A stretch of DNA of 64,000 nt from Candidatus Gastranaerophilales bacterium (lineage in GTDB: Bacteria; Cyanobacteriota; Vampirovibrionia; Gastranaerophilales; Gastranaerophilaceae): NCBI GenBank assembly GCA_944326565.1, contig CALVEL010000002.1:124001-188000 (forward strand). Reading direction: 5' to 3'. A program made the translations under genes and the position numbers. Under the pieces are notes generated by a model that searched no databases, had not been told where the DNA came from, and worked only from the letters and a program-made list of their open reading frames with translations. Positions 20,329 to 54,234 of this stretch are shown one piece after another. Numbering within the stretch: position 1 is the stretch's first letter; every line of letters begins with the position of its first letter.

Positions 20329-20520
20329 ACATTAAAAATTGAATTTATGGGGACGTTTGCCTTCTTTTCTTAATGAGAGCGCACGCTCGAATTAAAGAAA
20401 ATGGCTTCACGACTCTAGGAAAATTGTAACTGTTTACGAAAATAATAAAACAGTGAAAGGATTTGACGCCGTACGTAGTACGGCTATTGGACATTAAAAA
20501 TTGAATTTATGGGGACGTTT
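20329..20520 (+). repeat. Duplicated 5' end of ssrA: 30 bp direct repeat around a 132 bp insert
   Basis: The 30 bp from ACATTAAAAATTG to GGGGACGTTT occur identically at 20329-20358 and 20491-20520; the second copy contains the first ten bases of tmRNA. The 132 bp between them contains hairpins GAGCGCACGCTC and GCCGTACGTAGTACGGC and no ORF. This looks like an insertion or slippage event that copied the tmRNA start and left the functional gene downstream. Confidence 0.75.
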
Positions 20521-20908
20521 TGGATTTGACAGGATGTTTCGGTTGGAGCAGGCTGCGTGTCCGTGTGCTGTTCACGGTTATCAACGAGCAAACTAAATTA
20601 AATGCTAAAAATAATGTAATCGAAGCTGACTTCTCTAGAGCTTACGCTTTAGCTGCTTAGTCACTCGAAAATAGCTACTCATAAGACCCAGCTTGCCGGT
20701 TTTATGGGTCAATTATGCAAGCGCAGTGCATTGATGATGGTATGTGCATCCAGTTAACCATCAAGGGTTTAGAGTTTCCCTTTTAAAAACCTAGGATTAG
20801 TTTAAGGGTTTTGGTATTTTCCTGAACTAATTGAGAAAATAAATTCCTACACACGTAGATGTCGGTTACAATCCATTTTGGACAGGGGTTCGACTCCCCT
20901 CGTCTCCA
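20511..20908 (+). ncRNA. ssrA: tmRNA
   Basis: Transfer-messenger RNA that rescues stalled ribosomes and tags the nascent chain for proteolysis. The 5' GGGGACG and 3' CGTCTCCA ends pair as an alanyl acceptor stem. TTTTGGATTTGACAGG and ACAGGGGTTCGACTCCCCT (T arm) are the conserved tRNA-like parts. The tag ORF runs GCT (20604) to TAG (20660) and encodes AKNNVIEADFSRAYALAA, with the expected ALAA degradation signal. One-piece, not permuted. CCA is encoded. Confidence 0.97.
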
Positions 20909-21010
20909 ATTTAAATAAATGAGACAGGTCGTCTCACCGATGCTTCGCATAAAGGTTCTATCCTCTCACAAAACGATATTCAATCGTTTTGTTCGGCAGA
21001 GTCCTCGTCT
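20906..21010 (+). repeat. ssrA-associated structured repeat, copy A
   Basis: Begins in the terminal CCA of tmRNA and ends CCTCGTCT(CCA), echoing the tmRNA 3' end. Internal hairpins are GAGAC/GTCTC (20921-20935), AGG/CCT and the 10 bp ACAAAACGAT/ATCGTTTTGT. A second copy lies at 23116-23221. About a dozen differences by eye, several keeping pairing. Confidence 0.75.
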
Positions 21011-46034: not shown

Positions 46035-47117
46035 ATGGCAAAGTTTAATCCAAAATTTTCTATTACGAATACAATAGCAAATAACCTTCTTGAAATAGAG
46101 AGAATTAAAGAGGGGATTAAGTATTTGCCAATAAATCCAAAACTTTTAAGTTCTTTGAGAGAAACAGCTAAGATTGCAACAATTCATTATTCAACACAGA
46201 TTGAGGGAAATAGACTGACGAAAGAGGAAGTAAAAGAGCTCCTGAAATCTAAAAAAGTAGTTTCTAATACAGGCAGAATTCGTGACGAAAAGGAGATAAA
46301 AGGATATTATGTTGCGATAGATTATGTTGAAAAACTTGCAAAGTCAAAATCTCCAATCAGCGAAAATGATATAAAACACATACACGCACTTGTGGTTGGT
46401 GGCGGAAGCAGTAGAGTTAAAAATAGCGAATACAGGGAAGGGCAGAATGTCATTACAGATTCACTTACGGGTAATATAGTATATATGCCACCGGAAGCAA
46501 AAGATGTAAAGCCAATGATGGAAGAATTTGTGAAATGGATAAATTTAGTAAATGATATTCCTGTACCAATAAAAGCAAGTATAATCCATTACCAATTTGT
46601 AACGATTCACCCTTATTATGATGGGAATGGCAGAACAGCCAGATTGTTGACAACCCTAGCGCTGTATAAAGGCGGTTATGACTTAAAAGGTATCTATTCT
46701 TTGGAAGAATATTACGCAAAAGATTTGCAAGGGTATTATGACGCAATAACAATTGGAGAATCTCACAATTATTATTTGGGCAGAGAAGATGCTGACATAA
46801 CGAAATGGATTGAATATTTTATAAACGGGATGTTGATGGCATTCAAATCCGTTTATAATAAAGCCAAAGAACAAGAAAATACTAAAGATGAGATAAAAGT
46901 TCTAAGAGAATTAGATTCAAAACAGCGTCAAATTCTTAGCTTGTTTACTATGCAGAAATTTATAACAACAAAAGATATCGCAGAATTTTTCAAATTTTCT
47001 CCAAGAAGTGCAAGGTTATTGGCACTAGATTGGGTAAATCAGGGATTTATCATATCAAAAGGTGAAGGCAAGCAAAGAAAATACAAGCTTAATGATAAAT
47101 ACGAAAACATTTTGTAA
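46035..47117 (+). CDS. Fic/DOC-family AMPylator with C-terminal winged helix
   Basis: 360 aa. Catalytic loop HPYYDGNGRTARL near residue 191 matches HPFxDGNGRxxR. An N-terminal inhibitory motif STQIEGNRLT (residues ~53-62) makes this a class II Fic, autoinhibited by its own alpha helix. The C-terminal ~70 residues (KQRQILSLFTMQKFITTKDIAEFFKFSPRSARLLALDWVNQGF) are a winged-helix domain, so it may bind DNA, possibly its own TGGCAA repeats. Transfers AMP to target proteins. First gene of the CRISPR-bearing block. Confidence 0.92.
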   Translation: MAKFNPKFSITNTIANNLLEIERIKEGIKYLPINPKLLSSLRETAKIATIHYSTQIEGNRLTKEEVKELLKSKKVVSNTGRIRDEKEIKGYYVAIDYVEKLAKSKSPISENDIKHIHALVVGGGSSRVKNSEYREGQNVITDSLTGNIVYMPPEAKDVKPMMEEFVKWINLVNDIPVPIKASIIHYQFVTIHPYYDGNGRTARLLTTLALYKGGYDLKGIYSLEEYYAKDLQGYYDAITIGESHNYYLGREDADITKWIEYFINGMLMAFKSVYNKAKEQENTKDEIKVLRELDSKQRQILSLFTMQKFITTKDIAEFFKFSPRSARLLALDWVNQGFIISKGEGKQRKYKLNDKYENIL

Positions 47118-47153: not shown

Positions 47154-47517
47154 GTTTGTGAATAGTTAAAATTTTAAAGTATGTTATAATTTATTATGCA
47201 CTATTCAGATGTGGAGATTGTTTTGATTTACTATTAATTTAAAGTATGTTATAATAAATTTTGATGAACTCGGTGCAATATGGAGTTTTGATTTACTATT
47301 AATTTAAAGTATGTTATAATCCAAGAAACGATTTAAAATTAAAACAAGTAGTTTTGATTTACTATTAATTTAAAGTATGTTATAATTTATTGGGGAATTA
47401 TGGCAGGCAGACCTAGTTTTGATTTACTATTAATTTAAAGTATGTTATAATCAATTTCACGACTTTAACCCCTCGGATATAGTTTTGATTTACTATTAAT
47501 TTAAAGTATGTTATAAT
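47154..47517 (+). CRISPR. Type II-C CRISPR array, 5 spacers
   Basis: Five identical 36 bp repeats start at 47220, 47285, 47351, 47416 and 47482 (each begins GTTTTGATTTACTATTAATT and ends AAAGTATGTTATAAT). A degenerate sixth at 47154-47190 keeps only the last 18 bases. Spacers are 29 or 30 bp: 47191-47219, 47256-47284, 47321-47350, 47387-47415, 47452-47481. Each repeat ends in TGTTATAAT, a perfect extended -10, as in Neisseria and Campylobacter II-C arrays, so each spacer probably has its own crRNA start, read on the plus strand opposite to cas9. The degenerate repeat is at the end away from cas, which suggests new spacers enter near cas2. Confidence 0.97.
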
Positions 47518-47541
47518 AGGATATACAAATTAAATAATTTA

Positions 47542-47550
47542 TGATATAAT
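47542..47550 (+). promoter_or_regulatory. Extended -10 promoter of the tracrRNA
   Basis: TGATATAAT, with TG one base before TATAAT. The start should fall near 47557, just before the anti-repeat. No good -35 is visible, as in the repeats. Confidence 0.7.
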
Positions 47551-47556
47551 AGATTT

Positions 47557-47690
47557 GTAAAATACTTTAAGTTAATAGTCCAATCATAATTGACAAGAGA
47601 ATAGTTAGCTCCTCTGCTTGAATGTACGAATTGACTCATTCTCTAAACCTCAAAAATTAAATAATCCTAAAGGCATTTTACTATAAAATT
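47557..47690 (+). ncRNA. tracrRNA
   Basis: Anti-repeat 47559-47590 (core ATACTTTAAGTTAATAGT) is complementary to the CRISPR repeat over ~30 bases. It has one G-U pair, a small internal bulge (TA against CC) and a U-U mismatch, the usual II-C duplex. Downstream, AGAGAATAGTTA (47596-47607) pairs with TGACT-C-ATTCTCT (47632-47644), a nexus/stem-loop-like hairpin. The 3' end is not certain; a weak hairpin ATTTTACTATAAAAT lies at 47675-47689. Same strand as the array, between it and cas2. It would duplex with crRNA, be trimmed by RNase III and guide Cas9. Confidence 0.85.
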
Positions 47691-48018
47691 ACCAAAATGT
47701 CATTTGTTTTTCTATGTTTTCACCGGCATGCTTTTGAGATTTAGATTTTTTGTACCCTTTTCTTTCGATATTTACAGATAGGCTCCATTGTCTGTCTGTG
47801 ATATAGAATGCAGTAATTGAGCCTGTATCTGGAGCAATATACTTTAGATTCCGCAGATGTTGTTCTGTTTTTTCATATGTTACACAAGTCCTTACATATA
47901 TTGAGTTTTGAAGCATGAAGTAGCCCAACTTTAAAAGAGATTTTCTAAAAGCATTTGCTTGCCTGATTTCTTCTTTGTCACCTACTGGTAAGTCAAAGCA
48001 TACAATAATCCACCCCAT
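47689..48018 (-). CDS. cas2: Cas2
   Basis: About 109 aa from the ATG at 48018, preceded by GAGGAG 10 bases upstream; ATGs at 48036 and 48060 would overlap cas1 and are less likely. N-terminal WIIVCFDLPVG with the catalytic-position Asp, then RKSLLKLGYFMLQNSIYVR. With Cas1 it forms the spacer-integration complex. The stop abuts the tracrRNA 3' end on the other strand. Confidence 0.95.
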   Translation of the reverse strand: MGWIIVCFDLPVGDKEEIRQANAFRKSLLKLGYFMLQNSIYVRTCVTYEKTEQHLRNLKYIAPDTGSITAFYITDRQWSLSVNIERKGYKKSKSQKHAGENIEKQMTFW

Positions 48019-48025
48019 ACGATAC

Positions 48026-48973
48026 TTACTCCTCATATTCTCTGTTCCTATGTTTATCAATATGTAAGTATTGTTTTTTTACTTGAGGGATATAAACTTT
48101 TGAAGTGTCAAAGGTTAAATAGGCGTCAGCAATTTTTTCAATATAAATATCAACTGTATCAACTATTTTGTAGCTGTAGTCATTTATTATAAGTCTGTAG
48201 TTTTTTATACTGTCAGCAATAAATTTGCTCCATGCTTTAAAATCATTATTTTCATAGCTTTTTGATTCTTTTACTGTAAACTGATAAAAATAGTAATCAA
48301 CAAATGGTCTGTATGGTTCCATCAAATCATATACAAGCGGAGTACTTTTATATTTAGAGGAGTGATGTATTCCGAGACCTGCAATTAGACCATGTACAAT
48401 TACAGAACGATATATTAAAGTTTTTATAATTGCATAACCATAGTTCAAACATCCATTTTCATAAGTATCAGCACATTTATATTCTCTATTCATTGGATTT
48501 CCAATGTGAGTAAAATATTTACTCCAATATTGTCTTGCGATATTTCCTTCACTTATTAAAGGTCTTTCTATCAATTTATATAGATTGTGTTCTTTTACTC
48601 CTATTAAATCGAGTGTCTCAGCTTGGTTGTAGATTTTCCCCTGTAAAATAATTTTCCACAATTTTTTCTCAAATTCAGGATTTTGTTCGATTTGATTTTG
48701 AAAAACTTTTGGTCTTACAATTCTTTCTAAGGGCAGACTCCATCCGGTTGGTTGGTATTTATTATTGCAGTGTAAAATGATTACATCGTTTTCTAATAAT
48801 TTTGCAAGACAATTATTTGTAAATTTCACTCCATGCGTAGCAACAACTAAAGCTTTCAAATCCTGAATAGCAATTTTGTTTACTGTCCCATCATTTGATT
48901 CGCAAAACAGCAGACCATATTCAGTATAGAGAAAAGTATCAGGTGTTGTCAGGTGCAAAATATGATATGTCAT
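48026..48973 (-). CDS. cas1: Cas1 integrase
   Basis: 315 aa, type II-like Cas1. Metal-site Glu in SEGNIARQYW (~139), His in GLIAGLGIHHSSKYKSTPLVYDLMEPYRPFVD (~200) and the Glu/Asp that follow. N-terminal beta domain with LTTPDTFLYTEYGLLFC. It starts 30 bases after the cas9 stop, with no Csn2 or Cas4, which defines II-C. Confidence 0.97.
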   Translation of the reverse strand: MTYHILHLTTPDTFLYTEYGLLFCESNDGTVNKIAIQDLKALVVATHGVKFTNNCLAKLLENDVIILHCNNKYQPTGWSLPLERIVRPKVFQNQIEQNPEFEKKLWKIILQGKIYNQAETLDLIGVKEHNLYKLIERPLISEGNIARQYWSKYFTHIGNPMNREYKCADTYENGCLNYGYAIIKTLIYRSVIVHGLIAGLGIHHSSKYKSTPLVYDLMEPYRPFVDYYFYQFTVKESKSYENNDFKAWSKFIADSIKNYRLIINDYSYKIVDTVDIYIEKIADAYLTFDTSKVYIPQVKKQYLHIDKHRNREYEE

Positions 48974-49003
48974 AAATCGCTTTTAATGATTTTGTAGTAA
49001 AAA

Positions 49004-52000
49004 TCAATCTCGATATTTTTTAAAGTTTATACTTGATAAATTTGTGACACTTGTGCTTATTTCAATTCCGCAACTGTTTTCAAGTTTTACTTGTCCATTT
49101 CCAATTATCGTTCGCAATTTATATATCCCCGCAGGGAATGTTGTTTTTCCTGCATTGAACTCTTGTGGAACATCTACAAGGCATCCTGAATAGAATATCT
49201 CACCACCGTTGTACAATTTGCAACCCATTTTTATCAGTTTTTCTTTAACTTCTGAAGTTTTGATATTTGCATAAATCGGCATAACTTTTACAGTACCTTT
49301 TGCATTGTAGTATAAAATTTGACCTTTATGACCCTTGGAGTGTTTGAATTGATGCATAGTACCTTTGGTACCGAAATCACAAAATTCTCCAATTCTTTCT
49401 CTTCCGTTTGAATCTTTTTCAAGTTCTCCTTCTGATACAATCGTCATAACCTTTTTGACTTTTGTTTTTTTAGTTGGATGTGTATATTCTTTTAGCATTT
49501 TTTGCCAGTCTTGGGAAGACATATTTTCTGATAATTTGGCTAAAAGGTCATTTTTTATTGTTTCATCAATTATAGTTTTAATTTTTTTGTCATTTTGTTC
49601 AATGCTATCTAACGCTATACGATTTGTGATATAATTGTTGTCCCCATAAGTTCTTAGACCATAAATTGTCTCTTTTGGTCTTAAGTTTGCTTTTAGAGGT
49701 TTTTTGTGAGTGTATGGGTATGGCATTATAGAATCAATGACTTCTTTGATGTATTGAGGATTAAAATTTTCTATTTCATCTTTTTTAGATTCTTTATTAT
49801 ATTTAAAATCTCTAGAGTAGCTGATGCATATAGCATCCAACGCATGGTGTTTATCATTTTCTCGATTTTTCTTTTGGTCATCACCAAGGATTGAATTTAA
49901 TCCGTATCGTTTCCTTATAGCATGTGTTGAGCTGCCATTGTTTACATAAATATGTCTCTTTTCTCCTTCAACTTGTAACCCCCAACCAAAGACAAAGGCT
50001 GTTAATTGTTGTGCTACTTTTGCAATATGACTGGTTTCAGCTAATCCGTTATAGCTTTCAATAAGTTTAGCACAGTCTTCCGGTTTACTTGTTAAAAGTT
50101 CAAACTTTTTTTTGCCTAATTCTTTTTTTATATCATTTAGTCTATTAACATAAGCACTCCACTTTTCGTTATCATAAGCTAACCATTCGTAAGGAGTTCT
50201 ACCGCCTTTGTTTTGATTTTCGATTCTGTAACATAGAACTCTATTATATAACGCGTCATTCCCTCCCATAGTTCTCGGGTAAATGTGGTCTATTTCGCAT
50301 TTATCCAAATCATTAATGCCAATTGAGTTTCCACTGTAAATACAGCGACCTCCTTGCATTTTTAATAGTTTTAATTTATCAAAATTTGTAGGACTATAAG
50401 CATCTGCATTTTCTAATTCTTTTTTTATTTGTTCATTTTCTTTTTCATGTACTTTCATATTCTGTTCAGCAGCCTGAGCCTTTGCCCTACCAAAAAGCGA
50501 ATTATCAGCACCATCTCGCACGAATTCGAGGATGACCTCATCCGGTTTTTCATATTTGGCATATAAATCCAATAATAAATCTCTAAAAATCTGGATTCGG
50601 TTCCTTACTATAGGATTTGTTATATTTCCAATCATTAAATCTGTCTTGGTTCTAATAATACTGGCATTTTCTGCATTTTCATTTCTGTTGTCTGGGATAT
50701 ACAAATTGTTCCAGTCTCCGATTTTTGCTAGCATGTTTCTGATTTCTTCTTCAGTAATTCCATTTTTACAATCAGGTGCATCTACAAATTCTGCAATATC
50801 AAGATTTTGTGTGTATAATTCCCCTGAAAGAATAACCTTGCACATTATTTGACATGCTCGTCTGCAAAAAGAAGAACGACCAGAGATATCAGCTTTTATA
50901 GGTTCTATTTTATCAATTATTTTTCTGTTTAATATAAGTTCAATTTCTTTTTTAGTGATTGTAGTATTAAATTTAGTTTCAGATTTATCAGGGACGTTTC
51001 CCTCTTTTAATATTTTTTCTTTATGTTTTTTTACATTTGTTTCAACTTTATTTTGCCAATTTTGGTAGATTCCATTTATTTCAATTGGATTTAGTTTTAC
51101 CTTTTGACCTTGTTCATCAGTAATTCTTAAATTTTTCAATTTCATTAATAAAATAAAAGAAACATTTTCAAAAGTATTTGCTTTACATACATTACGTTTT
51201 GGAAGTAATTTGCACTTTGCTATAATTCTATTACTGAATCTCGGTATTTTTTGTCCTAATACCCCTTGCCAGTCATTTTTGGTTCCCATATATTTTCTAA
51301 ATTCTGGATTTATATATGAGCCATATGATATTTCATAATTACCATATAAAAATTCTTCAGGCGTATATTTGTTTAACTCAGAAATTTGCGATTGAGCATT
51401 TTTCCATAATTGTATTAATTCTTTTTCAATAAGCTCTCTTGGAGCAACATAATCTGTAGAACGGACTTTTATAATGCTAGAAGGATTTATTATTTGAGTT
51501 TTTAGTTCCTTCGGATTTTTTTCAGACCATAGACCGAGCCTTAGTGCTTCATAATAGCAAGGATATTTATATTCATTGTTATGTATAAGTTCAACACCAT
51601 TTTCTTGTGCATATTTTTGAATTAGTTCAAGATTATAGGTATCATCATCATTAAGTACTGTTTTCCATGGTAAATTGGCATCATAGCCCCTCCTTTGGAT
51701 TGCATTGTGTAGAGCTTTGTATATTTGCCATTTTTCTAAAGGTAAATTCTGGAGTAAAGCAATTCTCAAAAGACAGGACGTATAAATTGTAGATTCATTT
51801 TTGGAACTAAATTCTTTAGTAAATTTGATATCATTTTTGGATATAGGTACAAAACCACAAGATTGCCAAATTTGATTTAAATACTTTTCTCTTGTCTTAT
51901 GTGCAATTAGTGTTTTTTTTGTATGTCTTCTATTCTTTAATGAAGTATTCTCAGCGTGGTCTTTGTCGATAATAATCGAATTAATTTCTTTAATTTTGTT

Positions 52001-52063
52001 TCCTTCTCTAACGCAATATCCTATACTTGTTTTACCTAAATCAAATGCAAAAACTTTTTTCAT
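49004..52063 (-). CDS. cas9: Cas9, compact type II-C
   Basis: 1019 aa, at the small end for Cas9 and near the size of Campylobacter Cas9. RuvC-I Asp8 in FAFDLGKTSIGYCV, RuvC-II Glu ~509 in DEVILEFVRD, HNH catalytic His ~591 in KCEIDHIYPRTMGG with the usual IYSG and NRVLCYR flanks, RuvC-III HHALDAICISY ~740. The C-terminal ~150 residues (from about GEFCDFGTKG) form the PAM-interacting region, whose sequence is not one I can assign to a PAM. All catalytic residues are present, so it should be active. AAAGGGGC precedes the ATG. Divergent from the PLD gene. Confidence 0.98.
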   Translation of the reverse strand: MKKVFAFDLGKTSIGYCVREGNKIKEINSIIIDKDHAENTSLKNRRHTKKTLIAHKTREKYLNQIWQSCGFVPISKNDIKFTKEFSSKNESTIYTSCLLRIALLQNLPLEKWQIYKALHNAIQRRGYDANLPWKTVLNDDDTYNLELIQKYAQENGVELIHNNEYKYPCYYEALRLGLWSEKNPKELKTQIINPSSIIKVRSTDYVAPRELIEKELIQLWKNAQSQISELNKYTPEEFLYGNYEISYGSYINPEFRKYMGTKNDWQGVLGQKIPRFSNRIIAKCKLLPKRNVCKANTFENVSFILLMKLKNLRITDEQGQKVKLNPIEINGIYQNWQNKVETNVKKHKEKILKEGNVPDKSETKFNTTITKKEIELILNRKIIDKIEPIKADISGRSSFCRRACQIMCKVILSGELYTQNLDIAEFVDAPDCKNGITEEEIRNMLAKIGDWNNLYIPDNRNENAENASIIRTKTDLMIGNITNPIVRNRIQIFRDLLLDLYAKYEKPDEVILEFVRDGADNSLFGRAKAQAAEQNMKVHEKENEQIKKELENADAYSPTNFDKLKLLKMQGGRCIYSGNSIGINDLDKCEIDHIYPRTMGGNDALYNRVLCYRIENQNKGGRTPYEWLAYDNEKWSAYVNRLNDIKKELGKKKFELLTSKPEDCAKLIESYNGLAETSHIAKVAQQLTAFVFGWGLQVEGEKRHIYVNNGSSTHAIRKRYGLNSILGDDQKKNRENDKHHALDAICISYSRDFKYNKESKKDEIENFNPQYIKEVIDSIMPYPYTHKKPLKANLRPKETIYGLRTYGDNNYITNRIALDSIEQNDKKIKTIIDETIKNDLLAKLSENMSSQDWQKMLKEYTHPTKKTKVKKVMTIVSEGELEKDSNGRERIGEFCDFGTKGTMHQFKHSKGHKGQILYYNAKGTVKVMPIYANIKTSEVKEKLIKMGCKLYNGGEIFYSGCLVDVPQEFNAGKTTFPAGIYKLRTIIGNGQVKLENSCGIEISTSVTNLSSINFKKYRD

Positions 52064-52134: not shown

Positions 52135-53466
52135 ATGAAAAAGATTTTGACAATTGCGTTAATACTTATTGCAGTTTCGGTTTTACCAACAGCTGCAAGC
52201 GGGGAGAATTTTAAACAAGAAATTTCATCTAACAGTTACTGTAATTCTGAAAAAAATAGTAAATATCATAAAAAAAATTATTTAGTCATACCAGATTACA
52301 GAAGTAAAAATCTTAATCTATTTTATATTGACGGCTACAAATACAAAAGACCATCTGCAAAACCTAGAACAAAAGCCGCGAAAGCTTTAATTACTGAAAT
52401 TCAAAATGCACAAGAGAGCATTTACTTTGCAATATATGGAATAGCTGAGCAACCTGATATTGAAAAAGCTCTGATTAACGCTAAAAGAAGAGGGGTTGAA
52501 GTCAAAGGTGTCGTTGATATGACCCAAGACAATAAAAATATTTATTCAGGTACTGAAAACTTTATAGAAAGTCTTGGAAATATTCACAATGACTATGAAA
52601 TTGCAGATAAAAACGTGAAAGATGATTTTGATAAAGAATTTGATATCACTGCAGCTATAATGCATAATAAATTTTTCGTCTTTGACCAGAAAAAAGTTTT
52701 TACGGGTTCTACTAATATAAGCAATTCAGGCATTGGCGGGTATAATACAAACGTTAATGTTTTGATAAATTCTCCAGAAATTGCTGACCTTTATACAAAA
52801 GAATTTGAACAGATGTATGACTTAAAATTTCATACAATAAAAGAAGAATTAAAAAATAATAAAAACATTCAAATTGATAATGATACAAAAGTTTCAGTAT
52901 TTTTTGCACCCAAAAATAAGGTATTTGCTAATGAGCTACATCATTTGCTAAAGTCAGCACAGAAAACAATTTATATCGAAATGTTCTACCTCACTAATAA
53001 GTATCTGGTTAATGATTTAATCTTCGCAAAACAAAGAGGAGTAGAGGTAAAAATTATACTGGATGCTTCAAGTGTAAATAATGAATTTTCTGCTCATCAC
53101 AAACTGCGTTCCGCTGGAATTCCTGTAAAAATTGAAAATTGGGGTGGGAAAATGCATACCAAAGCTGCAATTATTGATAATGAATATTATGTAATTGGTT
53201 CAATGAATTGGACTGGTAAAGCTGAATTGCATAATGATGAAAATCTTTTAATTATCCAAAATTCTGCACTATCAAAAAATGCTACTAAACATTTTAATCA
53301 TTTATGGAATATCATTCCTGATAAGTATTTGACAGAAACTCCAAAAGCTGAAGGGATTGATTCAAAGTATTCGTGTTTTGATGGAATGGATAATGACCAC
53401 GATGGTAAGGTCGATTGTTATGATGAAGATTGTCTAGAATGCTGCAGAGCTAAAATAATTAAATAG
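52135..53466 (+). CDS. Secreted phospholipase D/nuclease-like protein with two HKD motifs
   Basis: 443 aa, signal peptide to about AASG (residue 22). First HKD MHNKFFVFDQKKVFTGSTNIS (~176), second MHTKAAIIDNEYYVIGSMNWT (~340); both keep H, K and D, so one active site per pair. The C-terminus ends CFDGMDNDHDGKVDCYDEDC, an EF-hand/thrombospondin-3-like Ca-binding repeat common on surface proteins. Related enzymes are secreted nucleases, cardiolipin synthases or phospholipases. The last ~33 bases overlap the convergent PAPS-reductase gene. Confidence 0.9.
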   Translation: MKKILTIALILIAVSVLPTAASGENFKQEISSNSYCNSEKNSKYHKKNYLVIPDYRSKNLNLFYIDGYKYKRPSAKPRTKAAKALITEIQNAQESIYFAIYGIAEQPDIEKALINAKRRGVEVKGVVDMTQDNKNIYSGTENFIESLGNIHNDYEIADKNVKDDFDKEFDITAAIMHNKFFVFDQKKVFTGSTNISNSGIGGYNTNVNVLINSPEIADLYTKEFEQMYDLKFHTIKEELKNNKNIQIDNDTKVSVFFAPKNKVFANELHHLLKSAQKTIYIEMFYLTNKYLVNDLIFAKQRGVEVKIILDASSVNNEFSAHHKLRSAGIPVKIENWGGKMHTKAAIIDNEYYVIGSMNWTGKAELHNDENLLIIQNSALSKNATKHFNHLWNIIPDKYLTETPKAEGIDSKYSCFDGMDNDHDGKVDCYDEDCLECCRAKIIK

Positions 53467-54234
53467 TGTATCAGGAATAATTTCTTTTTCTGATTTGTGC
53501 ATTTTTAAATATTTTTCCTTTATTTTTTTTATATTCTCAGGTTTTATCATATCCTTAAGTGAATATTCTATATTAAATCCCATTCGACCGCTTTTTATTT
53601 CAGCACAGTCATTGTATTCATATTCCATGGCTTTTTCATATAAATCAGGATGATTTTCATATAGCTTTAGCCAATCCATACAAGATTGATAAAAACAAAA
53701 GTAACAACCTGAGCGTTTTCTCCATTTATAATAATCTGACATTCCTATACCTGTGGTTTTAAGAATATTTTCTACATCACTTTTATAAATATTATTTTCT
53801 ATGAATGGAAAAACTTCTGACAAAAGCGGATTATTCCCTGCAGCTTTAGTTCTAAAAATCTCATCACTCCTAATTCCTATATATAGTTTAATTTTTGAAT
53901 AGCCGTATTTTGTCTTTAGATTTTTCACATAGCTTTCTAACGAATTTGTTTTTAATAACCCTGTACACCATCTGTGCTTATGCGAAGGTAAAAAATTGGT
54001 AGTTGCAAGAATATCTTCAAAACTTCTTTTGGGTTTCAATCTAGTAATTTGCTTGTTTAAAAACAACTCAATTTTATTTAAGTAGGCATAAGTCTCAGGA
54101 ATTTCATGTTCTGTATCACAAAACACAAGTTCTAATTTTTCAAAAATTTCAGGCATATTCTCTTTCATAAAAAATGCAAGTGCCGTAGAATCTTTTCCAC
54201 CTGATAGAGATAACATATGATATTCTTTTTCCAT
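53434..54234 (-). CDS. PAPS-reductase-family (PP-loop) protein
   Basis: 266 aa. PP-loop MLSLSGGKDSTALAFF, then VFCDTEHEIPETYAYL and HRWCTGLLKTNSLE; later RSGCYFCFYQSCMDW gives a Cys cluster. It lacks the SAT/APS assimilation partners, so it is not obviously for sulfate assimilation; PAPS-reductase-like proteins in mobile DNA are often linked to DNA thiolation or phage defence. AAGGAG precedes the ATG. Overlaps the PLD gene at the 3' end. Confidence 0.85.
   Translation of the reverse strand: MEKEYHMLSLSGGKDSTALAFFMKENMPEIFEKLELVFCDTEHEIPETYAYLNKIELFLNKQITRLKPKRSFEDILATTNFLPSHKHRWCTGLLKTNSLESYVKNLKTKYGYSKIKLYIGIRSDEIFRTKAAGNNPLLSEVFPFIENNIYKSDVENILKTTGIGMSDYYKWRKRSGCYFCFYQSCMDWLKLYENHPDLYEKAMEYEYNDCAEIKSGRMGFNIEYSLKDMIKPENIKKIKEKYLKMHKSEKEIIPDTLFNYFSSAAF

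Follow-up and report, generated by a model that had tools for sequence, protein, structure and literature searches.

A compact type II CRISPR-Cas9 locus of a Gastranaerophilales bacterium with a Campylobacter-like layout and an uncommon Cas9

The type II-C CRISPR-Cas system of Campylobacter jejuni has cas9, cas1 and cas2 as its only cas genes, spacers of about 30 nt and a tracrRNA gene that is co-directional with the array. Each repeat carries an extended -10 promoter whose motif coincides with a mapped transcription start, and the system combines these promoters with a maturation that depends on RNase III (PMC3656092). The C. jejuni array adjoins cas2, and spacer gain has been observed at its distal end (PMC3656092, PMC4283603). 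The II-C systems of Neisseria and Pasteurella have the same gene content, and their repeats end in the extended -10-like TGCTACAAT. In a 2025 classification type II-D is defined by cas4 in the adaptation module, and Cas9d constitutes a deep branch (PMC12669027). Compact Cas9d and Cas9c2 proteins, which include MG34, MG102, MG33 and the solved NsCas9d and NbaCas9, are tracrRNA-dependent enzymes of about 740 aa from uncultivated microbes and possess RuvC and HNH domains. Their marks are a zinc-finger motif in the HNH domain, RRXRR motifs and a richness in arginine (PMC9755519).

The locus described here lies within a 64,000-nucleotide stretch of a Candidatus Gastranaerophilales genome, referred to as the window. 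With a probability of about 0.86, it is an intact type II CRISPR-Cas adaptive immune system that would work like that of C. jejuni; the working principle is ordinary and the Cas9 branch is uncommon. The array is on the plus strand and consists of five identical copies of the 36-bp repeat GTTTTGATTTACTATTAATTTAAAGTATGTTATAAT (47220-47255, 47285-47320, 47351-47386, 47416-47451 and 47482-47517), preceded by a decayed oldest repeat (47155-47190) that has 9 mismatches in the 18 positions of its 5' half and none in the 18 of its 3' half. Between the repeats are five spacers of 29, 29, 30, 29 and 30 nt (47191-47481), and no further copy of the 31-nt repeat core occurs outside the array in the 1.87-Mb genome, even when three mismatches are allowed. 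The tracrRNA gene follows immediately downstream on the same strand, with its anti-repeat at 47555-47590 and a tail at 47596-47644 that contains the stem GAGAAT...ATTCTC. The cas genes, all three confirmed with Pfam and NCBIfam, occupy the minus strand. The cas2 frame (47689-48060) opens with TTG, and its true start may be a few codons downstream; cas1 (48026-48973) is of the type II/NMENI-like kind (159.9 bits against a cut-off of 120, NCBIfam); and cas9 (49004-52063) encodes a protein of 1019 aa with intact catalytic residues. Array, tracrRNA and the three cas frames agree with the complete and compact type II locus that a sequence-only reading had proposed, one point of orientation excepted. 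That reading had the tracrRNA facing the array, whereas the two are co-directional and it is the cas2-cas1-cas9 genes that converge, tail to tail, on both. The predicted promoters of array and tracrRNA thus oppose the cas operon, an arrangement typical of type II-C. There is no csn2 or cas4 in the locus, and a search between cas2 and the array for a fourth cas gene such as csn2, the mark of type II-A, yielded none. Gene content, the position of the array beside cas2, the direction of the tracrRNA gene, the spacer length and the promoter motif in each repeat are thus those of C. jejuni. An Rfam scan matched no family in the CRISPR locus; elsewhere in the window it identified a tmRNA gene (20511-20911, plus strand; RF00023).

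Several neighbouring genes were considered as parts of the locus and rejected, as they are absent beside the loci of relatives except for one distant Fic match (L055). A gene for a SoFic-like Fic-domain protein (46035-47117, plus strand; 190 bits, PADLOC) terminates about 40 bp before the array starts. On the other side is a PADLOC match to SspD of phosphorothioate-linked defence (53434-54234, minus strand; 264 bits), beside which a PLD-type protein weakly resembling DrmC of DISARM is encoded. The SspD-like and PLD-type genes may be stray genes of a defence island.

Related loci were collected for comparison and provided 29 Cas9 relatives and 23 close relatives in which the array end could be read. 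Residues D8, E513, H593, N616, H740 and D743 of Cas9 are invariant in the 29 relatives, as are E142, H204 and D216 of Cas1 in the clade. From its sequence, the protein is not an ordinary II-C Cas9. It matches the NCBIfam Cas9d model NF049971 over nearly its full length with 993 bits (cut-off 375) versus 258 bits (cut-off 100), and less than full length, for the general NCBIfam Cas9 model, while II-C and II-A control Cas9s give the reverse order of scores. The relatives score about 500-1100 bits with NF049971, and PADLOC Cas9 models give the clade 106-164 bits compared to 350-1190 for II-C. A phylogeny, which the sequence-only reading had called for, was built from the catalytic core; in this tree, which is without II-B and II-D references, the 29 relatives split from 25 II-C/II-A-type Cas9s with a branch support of 98/96. 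Their Cas1 proteins likewise form a separate clade (100/100). Cas9 and Cas1 fall in a clade that is deep and different from that of C. jejuni. The Cas9 clade also differs from that of Neisseria and Pasteurella, and identity to the Pasteurella protein is only about 31% over the alignable part. The earlier expectation of a lineage with few studied examples holds. The label type II-C suits the gene content and layout, while the Cas9 and Cas1 sequences stand apart from the sampled II-C systems.

It is quite possible, at somewhat less than an even chance, that the locus is instead a strict type II-D system which has lost its cas4 and is no relative of II-C. The full-length Cas9d match far above the cut-off and the separate Cas9 and Cas1 clades would fit this, as would the description of Cas9d as a deep branch (PMC12669027). 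The cas4 gene by which II-D is defined (PMC12669027), however, is absent beside cas9 in every relative examined, and elsewhere in the genome only weak PD-(D/E)XK matches were found, on other contigs. The HNH zinc finger is lacking in all 29 Cas9 proteins, an RRXRR motif is present in one of the 29, which is not that of the window, and the arginine content of the window's Cas9 is 4.4%, so that it is not arginine-rich. It shares small size, RuvC and HNH domains, tracrRNA dependence and an uncultivated source with the compact enzymes, but at 1019 aa it is considerably longer, and in core profile searches it is nearer to solved II-C Cas9s (147-161 bits) than to a solved compact Cas9 of 736 aa (67 bits). 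The 2025 classification also groups the Cas9 and Cas1 of type II-D with those of archaeal and compact Cas9d systems (PMC12669027); the NCBIfam label would favour such a grouping here, and this profile search against solved structures does not. Its Cas1 matches the type II/NMENI model. An AlphaFold model of the Cas9 (pLDDT 82, pTM 0.40) has good local confidence and retrieved SaCas9 and NmeCas9 first in a fold search, with low TM-scores that do not decide between the subtypes. The NCBIfam label Cas9d is at odds with the published definition of type II-D by cas4 and zinc finger.

Of 288 genomes of the host's family, 28 have a member of the clade; it also occurs in further families of the class and in one Spirochaetota bin. 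The Cas9 is missing from all 13 further genomes of the genus that were examined. One genome (G102) has a broken copy of the clade's Cas9 and another (G150) only a fragment (L063, L062), which indicates that the CRISPR-Cas9 system is being lost in some relatives. Other genomes of the same family (L061-L071) encode another Cas9, of II-C type and about 1023-1037 aa long, and have a different repeat, GTTATAGTTTCCTTTCGAAAGTATTTATTGTATAAT.

Unlike in C. jejuni, a conserved sequence, AGGATATACAA (47518-47528, plus strand), separates the last repeat from the tracrRNA. All 23 close relatives whose array end is readable have it immediately behind the last repeat. The sequence is invariant in an alignment of 19 loci, includes TATACA, the -35-like hexamer of the tracrRNA promoter, and is probably a spacer-integration (leader) motif. 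Decayed repeats were found only at the array end away from the tracrRNA, and together with the occurrence of AGGATATACAA in all 23 loci this suggests that spacers are acquired at the tracrRNA end. Repeat 5, which adjoins the leader and the tracrRNA, would then be the template for new repeats. A tentative extension of this reading, to which we give rather less than even odds, is that the locus belongs to a separate branch of Cas9 systems without cas4, which has Cas9 and Cas1 clades of its own and matches neither classical II-C nor the definition of II-D. Its tracrRNA gene would also serve as the leader of the array, and spacers would enter at the junction of the last repeat with a motif that is part of the tracrRNA promoter. 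In two relatives (L044 and L046, oriented with cas9 on the minus strand) remnant repeats lie about 265 bp upstream of the old end of the array, which suggests decay of an older, longer array. In another relative a short additional cluster of repeats (L057:1016-1151), spaced like those of a CRISPR, lies about 3.5 kb away from the main array.

The pairing of the tracrRNA with the repeat was examined by covariation in 23 loci that hold 20 distinct repeat/anti-repeat pairs, with anti-repeats reassigned at random in 5000 shuffles as the null. Over the 20 pairs 98% of cells are paired. Among the 200 cells at variable positions 188 are paired, whereas the shuffles average 159 and never exceed 175; position 14 alone occurs as C-G, A-U, U-A, U-G and G-C. 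The mean duplex energy is -25.1 kcal/mol with the own anti-repeat versus -19.5 kcal/mol with foreign ones. The GAGAAT/ATTCTC stem of the tail is conserved, with compensatory changes in 8 of 20 pairs of the tail, and no intrinsic terminator was found downstream of it. Covariation on this scale bears out the cognate tracrRNA and its anti-repeat as they had been predicted. The guide duplex had also been expected to be unusually weak. It is more AT-rich than that of C. jejuni. The weakness holds only for a repeat cut back to the customary length: the first 24 nt give -14.5 kcal/mol, against about -20 to -31 kcal/mol at comparable lengths in characterised systems (Neisseria -24.1, Campylobacter -30.8, S. 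pyogenes -20.3 and S. aureus -27.7), whereas the full repeat gives an ordinary -25.5 kcal/mol.

How the crRNAs would be matured is a related question. The system could be independent of RNase III, with crRNAs that start in the spacers and undergo no processing at all, as in Neisseria, where RNase III is reportedly dispensable. Short primary crRNAs would follow from repeat promoters, and an AT-rich duplex that is weak over its first 24 nt points in the same direction. Such independence, which the sequence-only reading had raised as a possibility with both Neisseria and Campylobacter as precedents, is nevertheless unlikely here. The genome encodes RNase III (222 bits, cut-off 166), so that independence is not implied, and the full repeat:anti-repeat duplex of at least 26 pairs is a possible substrate for the enzyme. 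Of the two precedents only Neisseria stands, as the C. jejuni equivalent, which shares the layout, depends on RNase III (PMC3656092). RNase III independence is thus possible and not indicated.

A consensus scan for sigma-70-type promoters identified TTTACT-17-TGTTATAAT in each of the five repeats, that is, TTTACT and TATAAT separated by 17 nt with a TG before the -10 element; in repeat 1 the hexamer is at 47227-47232 and, after 17 nt, the extended -10 TGTTATAAT is at 47247-47255 (plus strand). The same scan gave TATACA-17-TGATATAAT for the tracrRNA, which is TATACA-17-TATAAT, again with a TG, and whose extended -10 lies at 47542-47550. Both placements accord with the sequence-only reading, which had predicted a promoter in every repeat and one of the same kind for the tracrRNA. 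Within the window TGNTATAAT occurs 22 times versus 7.6 expected, with 7 of the 22 at the array and tracrRNA, and this excess suggests that extended -10 promoters are probably in general use by the organism. In the 23 close relatives the repeat ends in TATGTTATAAT with almost no exceptions. Repeats of distant relatives have in common only GTTTTGA at the 5' end and TGGTATAAT, TGATATAAT, TGTTACAAT or TGTTATAAT at the 3' end, and six of them retain the extended -10 with a diverged middle. Across the clade of 29 Cas9s the extended -10 is largely kept even as the central part of the repeat changes, and the anti-repeat changes along with the repeat; the TG is missing in two relatives (L058, TATATTATAAT; L095, AAGTTATAAT).

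Alternatively, an outside promoter could give a single precursor of the whole array, and the repeats would keep their TGTTATAAT ends for spacer integration or handling by Cas9. Cas1-Cas2 chemistry also takes place at the 3' end of the repeat, and the -35-like hexamer varies among the relatives and is not conserved in the family. This alternative is very unlikely, since the conserved motif is the extended -10 consensus and is independently present at the tracrRNA, the window has a surplus of AT-rich extended -10 motifs outside the locus too, and the same motif is the mapped start in C. jejuni (PMC3656092). Decayed first repeats also argue against it, as they retain the promoter half: among 22 complete arrays from the wider clade, 11 have a decayed copy at the old end, with 13 mismatches in 198 positions in the 3' halves versus 93 in 198 in the 5' halves, and such half-decayed copies arise by chance at 7 of 7046 positions. 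Three II-C-type arrays have the same pattern of decay with the 3' half kept. Retention of the promoter half fits a need to express the first spacer and is supportive of promoters in the repeats without being proof of them. These half-repeat stubs are not taken as proof of selection on the promoter, because an array truncated from its old end would be left with identical 3' halves; the decayed first repeats could in part reflect deletions at the old end instead of such selection. It is also possible that repeat 5 acts as a second promoter of a long tracrRNA.

The sequence-only reading had left the PAM without assignment, and so it stays: the search of phage sequences from which a PAM was to be derived has been run, and no protospacer was found for any spacer. 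Exact 21-22-nt PAM-side pieces of the window's five spacers have no match in IMG/VR, the long related arrays L041 and L038 gave only low-grade AT-rich matches in the phage collection, and 337 spacers had no match near full length in the fetched related loci or, later, in 19 phage contigs found with a prophage terminase. IMG/VR holds no phage-borne copy of the repeat, and no clear Cas9 homologue was found in phages; plasmid homologues match the catalytic core only. That the locus is dying, a remnant with just five spacers, is scarcely credible, for although the array is short with a decayed first repeat, its spacers have no targets found and the Cas9 is absent from the 13 other genomes of the genus, every reading frame and catalytic residue is intact, the five remaining repeats are identical, and relatives with the same parts carry up to 45 repeats.

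In the intact, Campylobacter-like system that is favoured here, the extended -10 promoter at the 3' end of every repeat would drive transcription of the spacer that follows it. A crRNA starting about 6-7 nt into the spacer would keep about 23 nt of it as guide and continue into the repeat that comes next. A separate promoter, immediately beyond the array and pointing the same way, would drive the tracrRNA. This RNA would pair with the repeat portion of the crRNA, and the duplex would be bound by Cas9 and probably trimmed by host RNase III before the complex cuts matching DNA. Cas1-Cas2 would probably insert new spacers at the tracrRNA end, adjoining AGGATATACAA.

Two features are newly described: the invariant AGGATATACAA that follows the last repeat ahead of the tracrRNA, and oldest repeats that are decayed and keep their promoter half. 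Repeat-borne promoters, best known from Campylobacter and Neisseria, would extend to a deep Cas9 lineage, in which they appear to persist as the remainder of the repeat is replaced. The related loci, about 27 of them with tracrRNAs, offer a family of small Cas9 proteins as candidates for PAM and editing assays.
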